Source: Acidimicrobiales bacterium (GTDB lineage: Bacteria > Actinomycetota > Acidimicrobiia > Acidimicrobiales > Acidimicrobilacustridaceae). Taken from it: 56,575 bases of DNA. The stretch is taken from contig JAURMR010000042.1 in NCBI GenBank assembly GCA_030830565.1, positions 98,072 through 154,646 on the forward strand. The letters run 5' to 3'. The translations under genes were made by a program, and so were the position numbers. The notes under the pieces are model-generated. The model had not been told where the DNA came from. It ran no database searches and saw only the letters and a program-made list of their open reading frames with translations. Below, piece after piece: positions 7,295 to 22,802 of the stretch (positions are counted from its first letter, which is position 1; each line of letters begins with the position of its first letter).

Positions 7295-7867
7295 ATGGAG
7301 CCCGTCGATCTGCCCCGAATCTCAGCTGCTGTGAAAGAGATCCTCATCGCTATTGGTGAGGATCCTGATCGCGACGGTCTGCAGGACACGCCTGATCGTG
7401 TGGCGCGCATGTACGCCGAAGTCTTTTCCGGACTTCGCGACGATCCCCGCAGCCACTTGCAGGTGATGTTCGAAGCGAACCACGACGAAATGGTGATGGT
7501 TCGTGACATCGCGCTCACTTCAATGTGTGAGCACCACCTCGTTCCGTTCATGGGCAAGGCGCATGTTGCCTACATCCCTGGAAGTGACGGTCGCGTGACA
7601 GGACTTTCAAAGATCGCCCGCCTTGTGGATGCTTACGCAAAGCGTCCTCAGGTGCAGGAGCGTCTTACTGCGCAGATCGCCGATGAACTTGAAGCAACGC
7701 TTCAACCGCGAGGCGTACTTGTCGTGATTGAGGCGGAGCATCTCTGCATGTCTATGCGGGGGGTTCGAAAGCCTGGTTCGACCACAGTGACGTCTGCAGT
7801 TCGCGGACTCTTCCGGGAAAGCACAGCCACTCGATTCGAAGCGATGCGATTCATCGCTCGCGACTAA
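7295..7867 (+). CDS. folE: GTP cyclohydrolase I
   Basis: The first committed enzyme of folate synthesis, GTP to 7,8-dihydroneopterin triphosphate. Zinc and catalytic motifs are present: [11 protein letters not shown] (about residues 70-80), and the second Cys ligand in [12 protein letters not shown]. The ATG at 7295 is chosen because AGGAG at 7284-7288 is spaced six bases from it; the in-frame GTG at 7292 would be too close. The length is 190 residues, normal for the family. It opens the folate block folE-folP-x-folB-folK, with only a two-base gap to folP. Confidence 0.95.
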
Positions 7868-7869
7868 AC

Positions 7870-8691
7870 GTGGCCGACGTCGTTCCTCGAGTCGGGGTTG
7901 GTACTCCGAAATCGGTTCCGCTTGTTATGGGAATCGTCAATGTCACGCCTGATTCCTTCAGCGATGGCGGAAAGTTTCTGGAACCCGCCTCTGCAATTGC
8001 TCACGGAGTGGCATTGATTGAAGAAGGCGCATCGATTCTTGATATCGGGGGAGAGTCGACACGCCCAGGAGCGACACCGGTTGATGTCGAGACGGAACTG
8101 TCTCGTGTCATCCCTGTTCTCGAAGGTTTGAACGGAAGGTGTCGTCTCAGCATTGACACCCGCCATGCCGAAGTCGCGCGCGCTGCGGTCGCTGCGGGGG
8201 CCACGTTGATCAATGATGTGTCGGCATCGCTTTGGCCGGTTGCGGCCGAACTTGGTGTGGGTTGGATTGCCATGCATATGCAGGGCGAGCCCGGCACGAT
8301 GCAGGCCGATCCGCACTACGAAGATGTCGTTGCTGAGGTGTGTGAGTTCCTTCGCGAGCGCGCAACGGCCGCTTCTGAGGCTGGCGTCAAAGAAATTTGG
8401 GTCGATCCCGGATTCGGATTCGGGAAGACCGATGCACACAATCTGGCGCTGCTCGCGCACCTCGATCGCATCGTCGAGATGGGTTGGCCGGTGATGGTGG
8501 GAACCTCCAGAAAAGCAATGCTGGGCAGGCTCCTCGCCACTTCCGATGGATCGACTGAACCCGTGCCCGCCGACGATCGTTTGGCTGGTTCTATTGCGAC
8601 CGAAGTGTGGGCAATGCACGCCGGAGCGAGCATGATTCGGGCTCACGACGTCAGAAGCGCCCTCCAAGCGGCCAAAGTCGTGGCAGCATGA
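7870..8691 (+). CDS. folP: Dihydropteroate synthase
   Basis: Condenses hydroxymethyl-dihydropterin diphosphate with p-aminobenzoate; the sulfonamide target. The signature MGIVNVTPDSFSDGG is near the N-terminus, followed by DIGGESTRPGA and INDVSA, and the C-terminal GTSRKAMLG substrate loop is present. It has 273 residues. Start GTG at 7870 is two bases after the folE stop, and the stop overlaps the next gene (ATGA), showing an operon. Confidence 0.95.
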   Translation: MADVVPRVGVGTPKSVPLVMGIVNVTPDSFSDGGKFLEPASAIAHGVALIEEGASILDIGGESTRPGATPVDVETELSRVIPVLEGLNGRCRLSIDTRHAEVARAAVAAGATLINDVSASLWPVAAELGVGWIAMHMQGEPGTMQADPHYEDVVAEVCEFLRERATAASEAGVKEIWVDPGFGFGKTDAHNLALLAHLDRIVEMGWPVMVGTSRKAMLGRLLATSDGSTEPVPADDRLAGSIATEVWAMHAGASMIRAHDVRSALQAAKVVAA

Positions 8692-19274: not shown

Positions 19275-19280
19275 GGTCGG

Positions 19281-19344
19281 CGGTCGGGCGGAGAATCCGG
19301 CTTCATCATCCTCGGCACGTTTGTGCCCTTTTCGGGAGACCTTC
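19281..19344 (+). promoter_or_regulatory. Conserved 5' leader of secreted paralogue 1
   Basis: The leader begins close to the predicted transcription start with GGTCGGGCGGAGAATCCG and contains a short hairpin GGCAC/GTGCC (19314-19318 and 19323-19327) with loop GTTT. The ribosome site is GGGAG at 19334-19338. The block is nearly identical before paralogue 2, where the stem is kept and the loop differs (GCCA). The TCGGGCGGAG core is also kept before paralogue 3. Confidence 0.55.
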
Positions 19345-20160
19345 ATGTTTCGAACTCTTGGTCGCATCGCCGCGGCTGTTGCATTTCTTGTTGCCACGGT
19401 TGCAATCGCTACCGTCGCGACGAACTCCACCGCCGGTGCAGCAAATACCGCCGTGACTGCCAACTGCAGCGCGTCCGCTTCGCCCCAGACGATCAACAAC
19501 AGCGACACCATCACCTTTACGATCGGCACGGGTTGTGGTGCCGTCATCCTGATGGCCGGCAGCGGTTCATCTGGATCCGCGGTTTGGACGCAGCTGCCTT
19601 TGACGCTGCAGACAGGGTCTCCCATTGGTGGCCTTTCGCAGGGAAATACTGTCGTGTTCACCGCCCCCGCCAGCGGCTCGGGTTCAATGTCGCTTGGATT
19701 CATGGCGAATGCCCAGTCACCTCCGCAGATCACGTTCACGGTGAACTATCCCACCCAAGCTCCTCCAACGCCCCGCAACGATTCAATCGTTGACAACGGC
19801 AATGGATCAATGACGATCACCTACGACCCGACTTCGCCAAATGAAAACATGTGGGTGTCGATTTTCCCGAGTGGTACGACCTGCGCCTCGGTTCCGGCAA
19901 GCCCAACCGGTCGCGTCTATGTGCTGACCCCTGACGCGCCTTACAGCCCAATTGGCGCAAGCCCCGTTGTGGTTGCGGCCGGTTCTCCGGCAATGACGGG
20001 CGTATCGCCCTATGCATCGGCAACGATCGCTGCGGGTTCGTACCAAGCGTGCATGTACTTCTCGCTCAATGGTCAAGGCACCCTTGTCCAGGCCCTGCCC
20101 ATCACCTTTAGCGAGGTCGCTCCTACCCCTGATCCAGTTGCCCCTGCTTTCACTGGCTGA
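19345..20160 (+). CDS. Secreted two-module protein with C-terminal PAFTG tag (paralogue 1)
   Basis: A 271-residue exported protein of unknown function. A Sec signal peptide (about residues 1-33: FRTLGRIAAAVAF then Ala/Val-rich, ending near TAGAA) is followed by two beta-rich modules. Each module has one Cys pair: NCSAS with TGCGA, then TTCAS with QACMY, so two disulfides are likely. The modules are joined by QAPPTPRNDS. The protein ends DPVAPAFTG and has no membrane helix after it. It is 67% or so alike by eye to paralogue 2 and shares the second module and tag with paralogue 3. It has its own promoter and terminator. Confidence 0.85.
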   Translation: MFRTLGRIAAAVAFLVATVAIATVATNSTAGAANTAVTANCSASASPQTINNSDTITFTIGTGCGAVILMAGSGSSGSAVWTQLPLTLQTGSPIGGLSQGNTVVFTAPASGSGSMSLGFMANAQSPPQITFTVNYPTQAPPTPRNDSIVDNGNGSMTITYDPTSPNENMWVSIFPSGTTCASVPASPTGRVYVLTPDAPYSPIGASPVVVAAGSPAMTGVSPYASATIAAGSYQACMYFSLNGQGTLVQALPITFSEVAPTPDPVAPAFTG

Positions 20161-20204
20161 AGCAGGCGCTCCCCAAGAGGGAATCCGCATTTGGTTGAAA
20201 CTCA

Positions 20205-20240
20205 CAGACCCCGGGCACTGTGCCCGGGGTCTGTTGTTTT
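20205..20240 (+). terminator. Rho-independent terminator after paralogue 1
   Basis: A 13-bp perfect stem (20205-20217 with 20221-20233, CAGACCCCGGGCA) around a three-base loop, followed by TTGTTTTTGG. It resembles the clpC terminator in core sequence (CCCCGGGC). Confidence 0.88.
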
Positions 20241-20267
20241 TGGGCCTTCATTGGGAATACGAGAACT

Positions 20268-20296
20268 TTGCAAGAGTGCTAGAAGTTCTTTATATT
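20268..20296 (+). promoter_or_regulatory. Promoter of secreted paralogue 2
   Basis: -35 TTGCAA (20268-20273), 17-base spacer, -10 TATATT (20291-20296). This is the strongest consensus-like promoter of the three paralogues. Confidence 0.7.
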
Positions 20297-20302
20297 TGAA
20301 GG

Positions 20303-20366
20303 CGGTCGGGCGGAGAATCCGACTTCACAATCCTCGGCACGCCAGTGCCCACCTAGGGAGACCTTC
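20303..20366 (+). promoter_or_regulatory. Conserved 5' leader of secreted paralogue 2
   Basis: Near-identical to the leader of paralogue 1: TCGGGCGGAG at 20306-20315, hairpin GGCAC/GTGCC (20336-20340 and 20345-20349) with loop GCCA, and ribosome site GGGAG ahead of the ATG at 20367. Confidence 0.55.
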
Positions 20367-21197
20367 ATGTTTCGCACTTTTGGTCGCATTGCCGCGGCTG
20401 CTGTCCTTCTTGCTGCCACCGTTGCAATTGCCACGGTGGCCTCGAGCTCTTCCGCTGGCGCAGCGAACACCAACGTGACTGCCAATTGCAGCGTGATCCC
20501 TCCGATTGAAACCATCGGTAACAACGACACGCTCACGATCACGGTGGGTGCAGGTTGTGGCGCTGTGATTGTTATGGATAACGCAGGTGGCACGTCGCGT
20601 TGGGAGCCAATGTCGATGTACATCAGCCAGGGAGCTCCCACCGGCGGTCTTTCGCAAGGCGACACCATCACCTACACCGCTCCTGCCAGTGGTTCAGGCA
20701 GCGCGGCAATCGGATTCATGGGAACAGCCCAGGACCCACCGGCGATCACGTTCACGATCAACTTTCCTGCCCAGGCTCCTCCCACGCCTCGCAATGATTC
20801 GCTTACTGACAATGGCGATGGCTCAATGACCGTTACGTATTCGTCAATAACGTTTCCTCAAGTTGTCGGCCTGAACCTTTTTGCTTCAGGTACTACGTGC
20901 GATCCCAATGGCAATCCGACGAATCGACTCTTCGGTATTGCGACGGCCTCTTCTCAGGCATTGCCGGTACTCGCCGCGAGCCCTGCAGTCCTTTCCGCCG
21001 GTAGCCCGATGCGATCAGGTTGGGCGAATACGACCGCTGCCAGCACTCTCGTGGCTGGGTCGTACCAAGCGTGTCTCTACTATTTCGACGGAGTGACATC
21101 GAACGTATTGGTGCAGTCGTTGGCTGTCACCATCGGGACCGTTACGCCGACGACTGCCCCCTCGGGCGATCCGGTGGTTCCAGCCTTCACCGGCTGA
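20367..21197 (+). CDS. Secreted two-module protein with C-terminal PAFTG tag (paralogue 2)
   Basis: A 276-residue close relative of the preceding protein. It has the same signal peptide type (FRTFGRIAAAAVLLAATVAI, mature start near SAGAA), the same two modules with paired cysteines (NCSVI/GCGAV and TTCDP/QACLY), the same linker QAPPTPRNDS, and the terminal tag DPVVPAFTG. The second module repeats D-N-G-D-G-S-M-T-V-T-Y. Function is unknown; an extracellular or surface role is inferred from the signal peptide and disulfides. Promoter, leader and terminator are its own. Confidence 0.85.
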   Translation: MFRTFGRIAAAAVLLAATVAIATVASSSSAGAANTNVTANCSVIPPIETIGNNDTLTITVGAGCGAVIVMDNAGGTSRWEPMSMYISQGAPTGGLSQGDTITYTAPASGSGSAAIGFMGTAQDPPAITFTINFPAQAPPTPRNDSLTDNGDGSMTVTYSSITFPQVVGLNLFASGTTCDPNGNPTNRLFGIATASSQALPVLAASPAVLSAGSPMRSGWANTTAASTLVAGSYQACLYYFDGVTSNVLVQSLAVTIGTVTPTTAPSGDPVVPAFTG

Positions 21198-21223
21198 TAT
21201 CTCAGTTCTTTGTCGGTTTTTGA

Positions 21224-21257
21224 AGAGGGCCGTGCTTTCGGGCACGGCCCTCTTTGC
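21224..21257 (+). terminator. Rho-independent terminator after paralogue 2
   Basis: A 12-bp stem (21224-21235 with 21242-21253, AGAGGGCCGTGC) around TTTCGG, followed by a short T run. Its sequence is unrelated to the terminators of clpC and paralogue 1. Confidence 0.8.
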
Positions 21258-21304
21258 GTTGTGCGCGATCAGCACTGTGCACTTGCGCTGGTAGGTTGCG
21301 CGCT

Positions 21305-22072
21305 GTGCTGAGGAACCGTCGACTGCCGCGAGTGTTCGCGTTCCTCGCGCTCGTTGTCTTCGCTGCTGCCGGTTGTCGCGTGCAGATTGAAACCAAGATC
21401 GATGTTGGTCTCGATGGCAAAGGAACGATCACCCAAGGCATTGGTTTCGACGATGCTGCATTGAAGCGTGTTGGCGATCCAGCGCAAGCATTGCGCGCCG
21501 ATGATCTTGTGCAAGCGGGTTGGGAAGTTGACGAAGCTTCAAGAGAAGGCGACCTCACCTGGATACGTGTGCACCAGTCGTTCGAGACACCTGAAGAAGG
21601 AACGGCGCTGCTCGCGCAATTGAGCGGTCCCGATGGTCCCTATCGCAACATGCTCATCAAACGTTCCGACGGTTTGTTGTCGACCTCGGTGAAAGTGACC
21701 GGAGAGGTCGACACCACCGCCGGCCTTCAAATGTTCGGTGATCAACAGTTAGCCACAACACTCGGTGGCGACGCGTCCGGTGGGTTACTCGCAAAGATTG
21801 AAGCCGAAGAGAAGGCTCCGCCAGCATCGATGGTGGATCTCGATCTCGTGGTGACGGCTGGCGGTTCCACAAAGACTTACAACGCGTCATTCACGGACAC
21901 CGACACTCAAAAGGTGAAGGTCAGTTCCTCAAAGGACAAGTTCCTCCAGATACTTGAAGCGCTCGTTGTGTTTGCATTAGCTGCTCTCACGGCCACGGTG
22001 ATTGGCCTCCGGTATCGCAAGCGTCGCCTGCGCACTCGACGCCTGATGCATTCTCGGCGCCGGCGCTGGTAA
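21305..22072 (+). CDS. LppM-like (DUF3153) lipoprotein with C-terminal membrane anchor
   Basis: A 255-residue exported protein beginning with basic residues and a hydrophobic stretch that ends in the lipobox-like AAAGC (Cys about residue 23). The body (QIETKIDVGLDGKGTI... and SFETPEEGTALL) matches the DUF3153/LppM family of actinobacterial lipoproteins. A single transmembrane helix near residues 217-235 is followed by an Arg-rich cytoplasmic tail (RYRKRRLRTRRL). I chose GTG at 21305; the frame is open from 21254. It lies between paralogues 2 and 3, so a link with them is possible but unproven. Confidence 0.75.
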   Translation: MLRNRRLPRVFAFLALVVFAAAGCRVQIETKIDVGLDGKGTITQGIGFDDAALKRVGDPAQALRADDLVQAGWEVDEASREGDLTWIRVHQSFETPEEGTALLAQLSGPDGPYRNMLIKRSDGLLSTSVKVTGEVDTTAGLQMFGDQQLATTLGGDASGGLLAKIEAEEKAPPASMVDLDLVVTAGGSTKTYNASFTDTDTQKVKVSSSKDKFLQILEALVVFALAALTATVIGLRYRKRRLRTRRLMHSRRRRW

Positions 22073-22120
22073 GCATCCCCACTAGGTGAGCGTTGCGTCG
22101 TTCCCCAAGGGCCCGGCGAA

Positions 22121-22150
22121 TTGTGCGGCCCAAATTCGATTGTCTACAAT
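22121..22150 (+). promoter_or_regulatory. Promoter of secreted paralogue 3
   Basis: -35 TTGTGC (22121-22126), 18-base spacer, -10 TACAAT (22145-22150). TCGGGCGGAG (22162-22171) follows, the same initial transcribed sequence as in paralogues 1 and 2. The rest of the leader is shorter and different. Confidence 0.65.
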
Positions 22151-22200
22151 CCTTAGAGCGATCGGGCGGAGGGTTCGATCTCGTTCCCAAGGGAGTTTGG

Positions 22201-22716
22201 ATGTCTCGTCTTTCGCAATCGGTGCGAATCTCAGTCGCCGGTCTTCTCGCAGTTTCTGCGCTCACCGTCTTTGGTGCGTCACCGGCTAGCGCTGCTGGCA
22301 CCGGATCGCTTGTGGATGATGGTAACGGTGGTTTGGTTGTGACCTATTCGAGTCCTACTAATCAGGATTACGTCGTTCTTGAGATTCACACAATTGCGTC
22401 AAACTGCAATAGTCCACAAAACGCTCTCGCTATTCTCACTAACGATCCGAGTGCCCCGCAGCTGGCGCAGATTGCTGCGAGTCCCGTAACCATCGTTGCA
22501 GGTACAACTGCCTTTGGTATCCAGACACAGGGGGCGTACACGATGGGTGCGACTTCGTACCTATTTTGTCTTATGCCTTTCGGCATGATGATGCAACCGA
22601 CTCCTCTTGCCCAATTGACCATGACAATTGGTCAGGGGTCGCCGACCACGACCACAGCGCCGTCAACCACGACGGCCCCGGCTGCTGATCCGGTGGCGCC
22701 GGCCTTCACTGGCTGA
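22201..22716 (+). CDS. Secreted one-module protein with C-terminal PAFTG tag (paralogue 3)
   Basis: A 171-residue exported protein. It has a different signal peptide (SQSVRISVAGLLAVSALTVFG, cleaved near ASPASA) joined to only the second module of the paralogues (DDGNGGLVVTYSS, one Cys pair NCNS/FCLM). A Thr/Pro/Ala-rich spacer follows, then the tag DPVAPAFTG at the end. The ATG at 22201 is supported by AAGGGAG at 22189-22195. The gene has its own promoter and terminator. The shared tag on an otherwise divergent protein suggests the tag is functional. Confidence 0.82.
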   Translation: MSRLSQSVRISVAGLLAVSALTVFGASPASAAGTGSLVDDGNGGLVVTYSSPTNQDYVVLEIHTIASNCNSPQNALAILTNDPSAPQLAQIAASPVTIVAGTTAFGIQTQGAYTMGATSYLFCLMPFGMMMQPTPLAQLTMTIGQGSPTTTTAPSTTTAPAADPVAPAFTG

Positions 22717-22741
22717 GTTATTCACACTCTCGATGTGTTCG

Positions 22742-22769
22742 GTGCCGCTCCTTCGGGGGCGGCACTTTT
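22742..22769 (+). terminator. Rho-independent terminator after paralogue 3
   Basis: A 10-bp stem with one G-T pair (22742-22751 with 22756-22765) around a TTCG tetraloop, followed by TTTT. Confidence 0.85.
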
Positions 22770-22802
22770 CGTTTCGGGGCCATGAGTGTCTCGCCCGATG
22801 CG

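Follow-up and report, generated by a model that had tools for sequence, protein, structure and literature searches.

Sorting of exported proteins to the cell surface by means of a C-terminal signal is a known class of mechanism. Among the described systems, GlyGly-CTERM/rhombosortase, PEP-CTERM/exosortase and MYXO-CTERM/myxosortase are presented, in the parts of the two sources that deal with them, as tripartite, consisting of a motif, a helix and a basic cluster (PMC3237569, PMC11980579). The subject here is a tag with the consensus hydrophobic-x-P-x-[F/Y]-T-G and a free carboxyl end, which is found on three paralogous secreted proteins encoded within a 56,575-nucleotide stretch of DNA (termed here the window) from an Acidimicrobiales bacterium of the family Acidimicrobilacustridaceae. 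A preliminary description, made from the letters of the window, had suggested that this tag could be a new sorting, anchoring or processing signal.

With the CTERM systems the tag has in common that exported proteins of one genome which are unrelated in other respects share the signal alone and that homologues bear other tails, as the same parts of those sources relate (PMC3237569, PMC11980579); it differs from them in consisting of the motif alone and in that no partner enzyme was found. It resembles LPXTG/sortase signals in being C-terminal, often after a Pro/Thr-rich linker, in its T-G end, in the kind of exported passengers that carry it and in being interchangeable with them on homologues. 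It differs in being P-x-[FY]-T-G rather than L-P-x-T-G, in lacking both membrane helix and basic tail (the chain ends at the G), and in that no dedicated sortase was found. SLH domains are comparable insofar as they end, in one genome (G024), the same passenger that elsewhere bears the tag (PF00395), but they are folded, with some 44 residues to each repeat, rather than a short peptide. The peroxisomal PTS1 tripeptide and PDZ ligands likewise consist of a few extreme C-terminal residues that have a free carboxylate and are recognized by a receptor; these, however, are eukaryotic or intracellular and have other motifs, and no relation is claimed. A version lacking both helix and tail is absent from the systems compared, and no account of such a tail-less tag was found in the open-access literature searched. 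On comparison of sequences, a somewhat favored reading is that the tag is a dedicated C-terminal signal, which would keep exported proteins at the cell surface, its free C-terminus being read by one trans-acting factor and capture proceeding without a canonical sortase reaction.

A terminal motif on many unrelated proteins

The pattern P-x-F-T-G followed by a stop was counted in 99 genomes of the order, namely 37 from the window's family, 61 from other families, and G041, which is the sole representative of its own family among the genomes searched; because the stop pattern also admits TGG, there is noise in all of them, and the reversed pattern served as control. The window's own genome (2.0 Mb, 71% complete) yields 21 matches versus 2 for the reversed pattern, and the 37 family genomes together yield 552 versus 35 (3-36 per genome), whereas the 61 genomes of other families yield 106 versus 101; G041 has 17 versus 0. 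Counts of at least the genome's own reversed control plus three occur in 35 of the 37 family genomes (the two exceptions being G025 and G007) versus 4 of the 61 others. Within a sample of 396 genomes from the phylum, the four family members have 11, 12, 21 and 25 matches and the other 392 all have eight or fewer. A search of a named collection returned 84 stretches, many of which come from unrelated bacteria and look like chance matches; they were kept out of the counts. Three public assemblies titled Bifidobacterium breve (CAMCTY, CAMCTW and CAMAYJ) bear several tags and look mislabelled.

One of the two exceptional genomes carries a variant of the same tag. Proteins of G025, which stands for one genus, end in P-x-Y-[T/A]-G 27 times (control 4) and in P-x-F-T-G 3 times (control 1); in most family genomes it is the F ends that prevail, and G026 has F ends together with some Y ends near control. 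Because the same residue has changed on many G025 proteins genome-wide, this F-to-Y change would be best explained by a single common reader with an altered preference.

How strict the motif is can be gauged from the fetched regions. Of the 1508 distinct genes that these contain, 115 end in P.[FY]TG, a number that is enriched inasmuch as these regions were picked for tags or sortase genes, the unselected counts being the whole-genome ones only. Near misses at a single position are rare (1 without P, 1 without the aromatic residue, 3 without T and 2 without G), and the reversed and two permuted motifs never occur at the C-terminus in these genes. Further comparisons are based on a tagged set of 208 distinct frames, each of at least 80 residues, read in regions fetched around tags. 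Of these, 186 have V, A, L or I at position -7, and positions -6 and -4 are freer. Within the tagged proteins the motif occurs internally at chance level (12 times, versus 10 for the reversed motif), so that its enrichment is confined to the terminus; five of the 12 lie at most 60 residues from the end, of which three are part of the sequence proper to one beta-helix family and one belongs to a gene that reads a single residue past the motif. The free end is thus nearly, though not wholly, obligatory.

It is the peptide, rather than the DNA, that is kept: the 208 frames encode 15 different last-five peptides by way of 139 different 15-nucleotide strings, which bears out, on a larger scale, what the preliminary description had read from the synonymous codon differences among the window's paralogues. 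That description had also pointed out that no tail follows the T-G, and this holds: the stop codon adjoins the G, and frames coding for a membrane helix are rarer directly 3' of the stop in tagged genes (12 of 204) than in other genes (214 of 1341). A hidden tail, reached through readthrough or frameshifting, was accordingly rejected, there being no surplus of helix-coding frames after the stop; the share of TGA among stops is 171 of 208 versus 1083 of 1393.

The tagged proteins fall into 65 BLAST clusters, 41 of which are singletons, and they come from one whole family and one outside genome, so that the tag is not limited to close paralogues, a restriction that the preliminary description had named as one that would refute it. 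Some tagged genes are indeed tandem paralogues (in the window and in L241), as would be expected if the tag were a functionless remnant spread by gene duplication; this is nonetheless highly improbable given the number of clusters and singletons, the synonymous drift beneath a fixed peptide, the presence of the tag on orthologues across genera, and the genome-wide F-to-Y shift. Scans of 16 tagged proteins against NCBIfam and of 17 against Pfam gave matches that included a beta-helix with a choice-of-anchor Q domain, beta-propellers (YVTN, PD40), neocarzinostatin, a PhoD-type phosphatase, a kumamolisin activation domain, subtilase, collagen repeats and ubiquitin; some of the proteins had no match. 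In the 16 scanned against NCBIfam, the last five residues lay outside every listed best stretch, and hence no existing NCBIfam C-terminal model recognized the tag on them.

Most tagged proteins are, as judged from their sequences, exported. A crude test looks, in the first 110 residues of the open frame, for a basic residue with an uncharged hydrophobic stretch after it; it is positive for 143 of the 181 tagged frames having a complete 5' end (probably an underestimate, since many failing frames extend far upstream of the likely start) versus 414 of 1295 untagged genes. Moreover, the 38 residues preceding position -7 consist at least half of P, T, S or A in 128 of the 208 tagged frames versus 43 of 1393 others.

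Two groups of tagged proteins have unusual architectures. The first (L192:7031-7717 and 7739-8425, both on contig C42 of the window's own genome, L249:406-1095, L036 and L307:8552-9235) consists of an N-terminal ubiquitin domain, a further domain and a P-x-F-T-G tag, with no visible signal peptide; one ubiquitin copy is identical, as aligned by eye, to human polyubiquitin-C at 68 of 74 residues, and two copies match Pfam at E = 5e-32 and 2e-22. A ubiquitin that appears eukaryote-like from its sequence is thus present in tag-bearing bacteria and seems worth separate study. The second group (L193:394-1329, L199:1820-2719 and L227:7398-8018) has a weakly PqqD-like N-terminus (for L193, E = 0.008, which is under the model cut-off), then an internal Tat signal and then the tag; these genes adjoin glycosyltransferase-like genes and, for L227, also an HPr-kinase-like gene.

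Exchange of the tag with known anchors

As to function, the most telling evidence comes from homologous proteins, or 'passengers', that end differently. The family used as a test is exemplified by a G018 protein (L205:8633-9817), which matches the NCBIfam SCO2321-like model at 97 bits, under the model cut-off of 300; members occur in 33 of the 99 genomes, and 30 loci were read. Twenty-five of these end in P-x-[FY]-T-G, one in PRYAG, one in SLH domains and one in an IPETG-type signal, and two are broken, with an in-frame stop ahead of the tag in G019 and a gene in pieces in G036, where another frame of the locus ends in PKFTG. The SLH-ended protein (G024, L334) has three SLH stretches (PF00395, 121 bits). 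The IPETG-ended protein (L339) comes from G046, a genome outside the family, and its IPETG, hydrophobic stretch and basic tail were read by eye as a sortase-type signal. That both proteins belong to the passenger family is confirmed by the SCO2321 model (173 and 188 bits).

A second set of comparisons is provided by seven untagged homologues of tagged proteins within the fetched regions. Three of these (L308, L065 and L054, of which two belong to the window's own genome) have, by eye, an LPxTG followed by a hydrophobic stretch and a basic tail; the NCBIfam LPXTG model scores L308 at 16.4 bits (cut-off 15.9) and L065 at 14.7 bits, and at E 0.1 it does not match L054. Of the other four, one ends in FTA, one in RFTS and two lack a C-terminal anchor. 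The NCBIfam choice-of-anchor Q domain occurs just before the tag in all five tagged beta-helix proteins scanned, and the L054 protein, a paralogue that ends in LPVTG, helix and basic tail, has this same domain just before its tail. By naming custom, 'choice-of-anchor' in a model name means that the members use different anchors.

The exchange of the tag with known types of anchor supports a role in surface retention, because homologous passengers carry such anchors at the very place that the tag occupies; of the roles named in the preliminary description, it favors sorting or anchoring in particular. Exchange of tails on homologues is also the argument that Haft and Varghese used for GlyGly-CTERM, in the part of their paper that bears on it (PMC3237569).

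A cobalamin-class riboswitch lies upstream of SCO2321-like genes at L397:8636-8789 (minus strand) and L326:1163-1296, in both of which the gene is tagged, and at L334:2790-2937 (minus strand), where it is SLH-ended; among six passenger loci scanned, none was detected at the Rfam gathering score in L205, L315 and L339. These adenosylcobalamin (AdoCbl)/cobalamin riboswitches suggest that the passenger is a cobalamin-related surface protein.

Candidate readers and a proposed mechanism

The foremost alternative is that the tag is a minimal sortase signal lacking a tail, in which case a class E-like sortase would cut between T and G and join the protein to the wall, the terminal Gly being the sole leaving group. 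The T-G end is shared with LPXTG, the tag occupies the place of sortase signals on homologues, and a sortase was detected in 34 of the 37 family genomes, the three without being assemblies that are 71-85% complete. The sortase of the window's own genome keeps, by eye, its catalytic His, Cys and Arg (157.1 bits as class E, cut-off 160), and in G027 a single sortase was detected alongside 25 tag matches; in addition, synthetic LPETG peptides supplied from outside are incorporated by Staphylococcus aureus SrtA, according to the part of PMC3929722 that reports this. The conserved positions, however, are not those of LPXTG, since an aromatic residue precedes the T and the residue after the P is free, and LPXTG-type signals persist in tag-bearing genomes (0-10 hidden Markov model matches per family genome at E 0.1). 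Nor do sortases track the tag: PF04203 is found in 90 of the 99 genomes and a class E-like sortase in 86, in tagged and tag-less families alike, and the best match in G041 is weaker than those of many tag-less families. A dedicated sortase was rejected as reader on account of this order-wide distribution, and a minimal sortase signal is considered unlikely, though its probability is not negligible. Evidence from G019, where the sortase gene has a mid-gene TAG and no LPXTG match was found, was set aside, as another gene of that assembly is also interrupted.

A second sortase homologue occurs at L291:7948-9111, L292:7678-8796, L293, L294, L296-L299, L301 and L302. In ten aligned copies, read by eye, the catalytic Cys is absent from all and the His is replaced in nine, and most lack the Arg; such a protein, kept nonetheless in many family genomes, might be imagined to serve as a non-enzymatic receptor for the tag. 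It is not co-distributed with the tag, however: the tag-bearing genomes G023, G026, G027 and G041 have no strong match of their own, their best matches coinciding with the ordinary sortase, and strong matches (by match score alone) occur in the tag-less families f2, f4, f55 and f10. This candidate was rejected, the idea being largely refuted already and its remaining probability slight. In both neighborhoods read, the gene adjoins phosphate-uptake-like genes.

In a third alternative, the reader would be a protease acting on C-termini, a chaperone or a secretion factor, and the role of the tag would be processing, folding or release rather than anchoring. PDZ-type proteases typically bind short C-terminal peptides whose carboxylate is free, and some passengers are enzyme-like and could act free in the medium (those with kumamolisin-type, subtilase and PhoD-type phosphatase matches). 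Yet on homologues the tag replaces anchors, in the beta-helix family it comes after a choice-of-anchor domain, and linkers that look like wall spanners often precede it; this alternative is given a little less credence than a minimal sortase signal.

What is proposed instead is retention by a dedicated factor at the surface, which might work as follows. Sec or Tat would carry tagged proteins over the membrane; the last seven or so residues would be held away from the folded domain by a linker, in many cases rich in Pro, Thr, Ser and Ala; a trans-acting surface factor would then read this extended strand, with the side chains at -7, -5 and -3 on one face and the Gly carboxylate at its end; and retention of the protein by this factor would most likely involve neither a membrane-bound precursor nor a canonical sortase reaction. 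An extended strand with a bound carboxylate is suggested by the conserved -7, -5, -3 face together with the fixed end. Retention at the surface would be the outcome, reading would be due to one factor, and capture would presumably be non-covalent; this last is a choice made here, its main rival being a sortase-type reaction. A bolder version, put forward tentatively and held to be rather less than probable, is that, once export is complete, a five-residue terminal peptide with neither helix nor tail is bound either by a single surface receptor dedicated to it or by a transpeptidase that reads the free carboxylate and drops the terminal Gly, much as transpeptidases deal with the terminal D-Ala of peptidoglycan stems; this would constitute a categorically new sorting route that partly displaces sortase anchoring in one actinobacterial family.

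Several observations weigh against retention by a dedicated factor, besides the enrichment of the gene-set counts mentioned above. The preliminary description had recommended looking for a co-occurring transpeptidase or C-terminal protease; none was identified, and no receptor or enzyme reading the tag emerged from the distribution of sortases or from gene clustering around tags. This clustering, performed on fetched regions from five genomes and then from 20 genomes (first 45 clusters), revealed no machinery-like untagged neighbor recurring across genera, and the untagged neighbors that do recur look, by eye, like housekeeping enzymes or synteny. Outside the family, exchange is represented by a single orthologue, that of G046, whose IPETG end has no match to the NCBIfam LPXTG model at E 0.1. 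Three of the seven untagged homologues, all from G041, have no recognized C-terminal anchor: one has the RFTS end and, by eye, one has a lipobox-like start and one an N-terminal membrane helix. The free terminal Gly is not absolute, inasmuch as the variant ends FTA, FTR and FAG occur and one gene extends a residue past the motif. In G007 neither form of the tag stands above control (3 versus 2 and 3 versus 7). Finally, the five full-length ubiquitin-domain proteins are tagged yet have no visible export signal.

The paralogues of the window and the meaning of the tag

The three paralogues (Table 1) end as first described, with TGA directly after each tag, and alignment confirms that the third, though lacking the first module, is tagged nevertheless. 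P-A-F-T-G followed by a stop occurs three times in the window versus none in 100 dinucleotide shuffles. In an alignment of 14 sequences that includes the three paralogues, mean column identity is 39%, the terminal residues are near-invariant, and the length of the preceding linker is very variable. None of the three matches Pfam (E 0.01) or NCBIfam (E 1). An AlphaFold2 model of the paralogue fold (overall pLDDT 63.8) has a beta-rich second module and a confidence that drops at the tag, and a search of the PDB with this fold returned weak Ig/FnIII-like matches, none at E ≤ 0.001.

Table 1. Positions, within the window, of the three tagged genes, their tags and the hairpins that follow them
Feature	Position	Strand	Evidence
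Tagged, predicted exported protein 1 (271 aa): signal peptide, then an N-terminal and a beta-rich C-terminal module, with the tag at the end	19345..20160	+	Sequence and predicted fold
C-terminal tag DPVAPAFTG, then TGA (gene 1)	20131..20157	+	Sequence read, pattern search
Terminator-like hairpin and T run 3' of gene 1, starting 44 nt downstream	20204..20241	+	Terminator scan
Tagged, predicted exported protein 2 (276 aa): both modules as in protein 1, 55% identity to protein 1	20367..21197	+	Translation, alignment
C-terminal tag DPVVPAFTG, then TGA (gene 2)	21168..21194	+	Sequence read, pattern search
Hairpin about 27 nt 3' of gene 2	21224..21254	+	By eye; absent from terminator scan
Tagged, predicted exported protein 3 (171 aa): signal peptide followed by the second module alone, a Thr/Pro linker and the tag	22201..22716	+	Translation, alignment
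C-terminal tag DPVAPAFTG, then TGA (gene 3)	22687..22713	+	Sequence read, pattern search
Terminator-like hairpin 3' of gene 3, starting 25 nt downstream	22741..22770	+	Terminator scan

Terminator-like hairpins are little commoner in the real DNA than in shuffles (6 versus 3.8 ± 2.2 in the scan). A common upstream stretch (GGTCGGGCGGAG or similar) lies 5' of the three paralogues (19280-19344, 20300-20366 and 22160-22200) and of some relatives; it has no Rfam match, the only Rfam matches in the window at gathering scores being two tRNAs. Between the second and third paralogues (21332-22072) is an untagged lipoprotein-like gene with a C-terminal helix and a very basic tail of its own.

In the C-terminal signals with which the tag was compared, a helix and a basic tail keep the precursor membrane-bound up to its cleavage by an enzyme. 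A signal able to dispense with both would, if true, represent a different logic of surface display, and a portable five-residue tag of this kind could serve protein display. The clear phyletic pattern of the tag offers a means to find its partner. For the family itself, whose NCBI titles include Candidatus Microthrix, the tag provides a prediction of the surface proteome.

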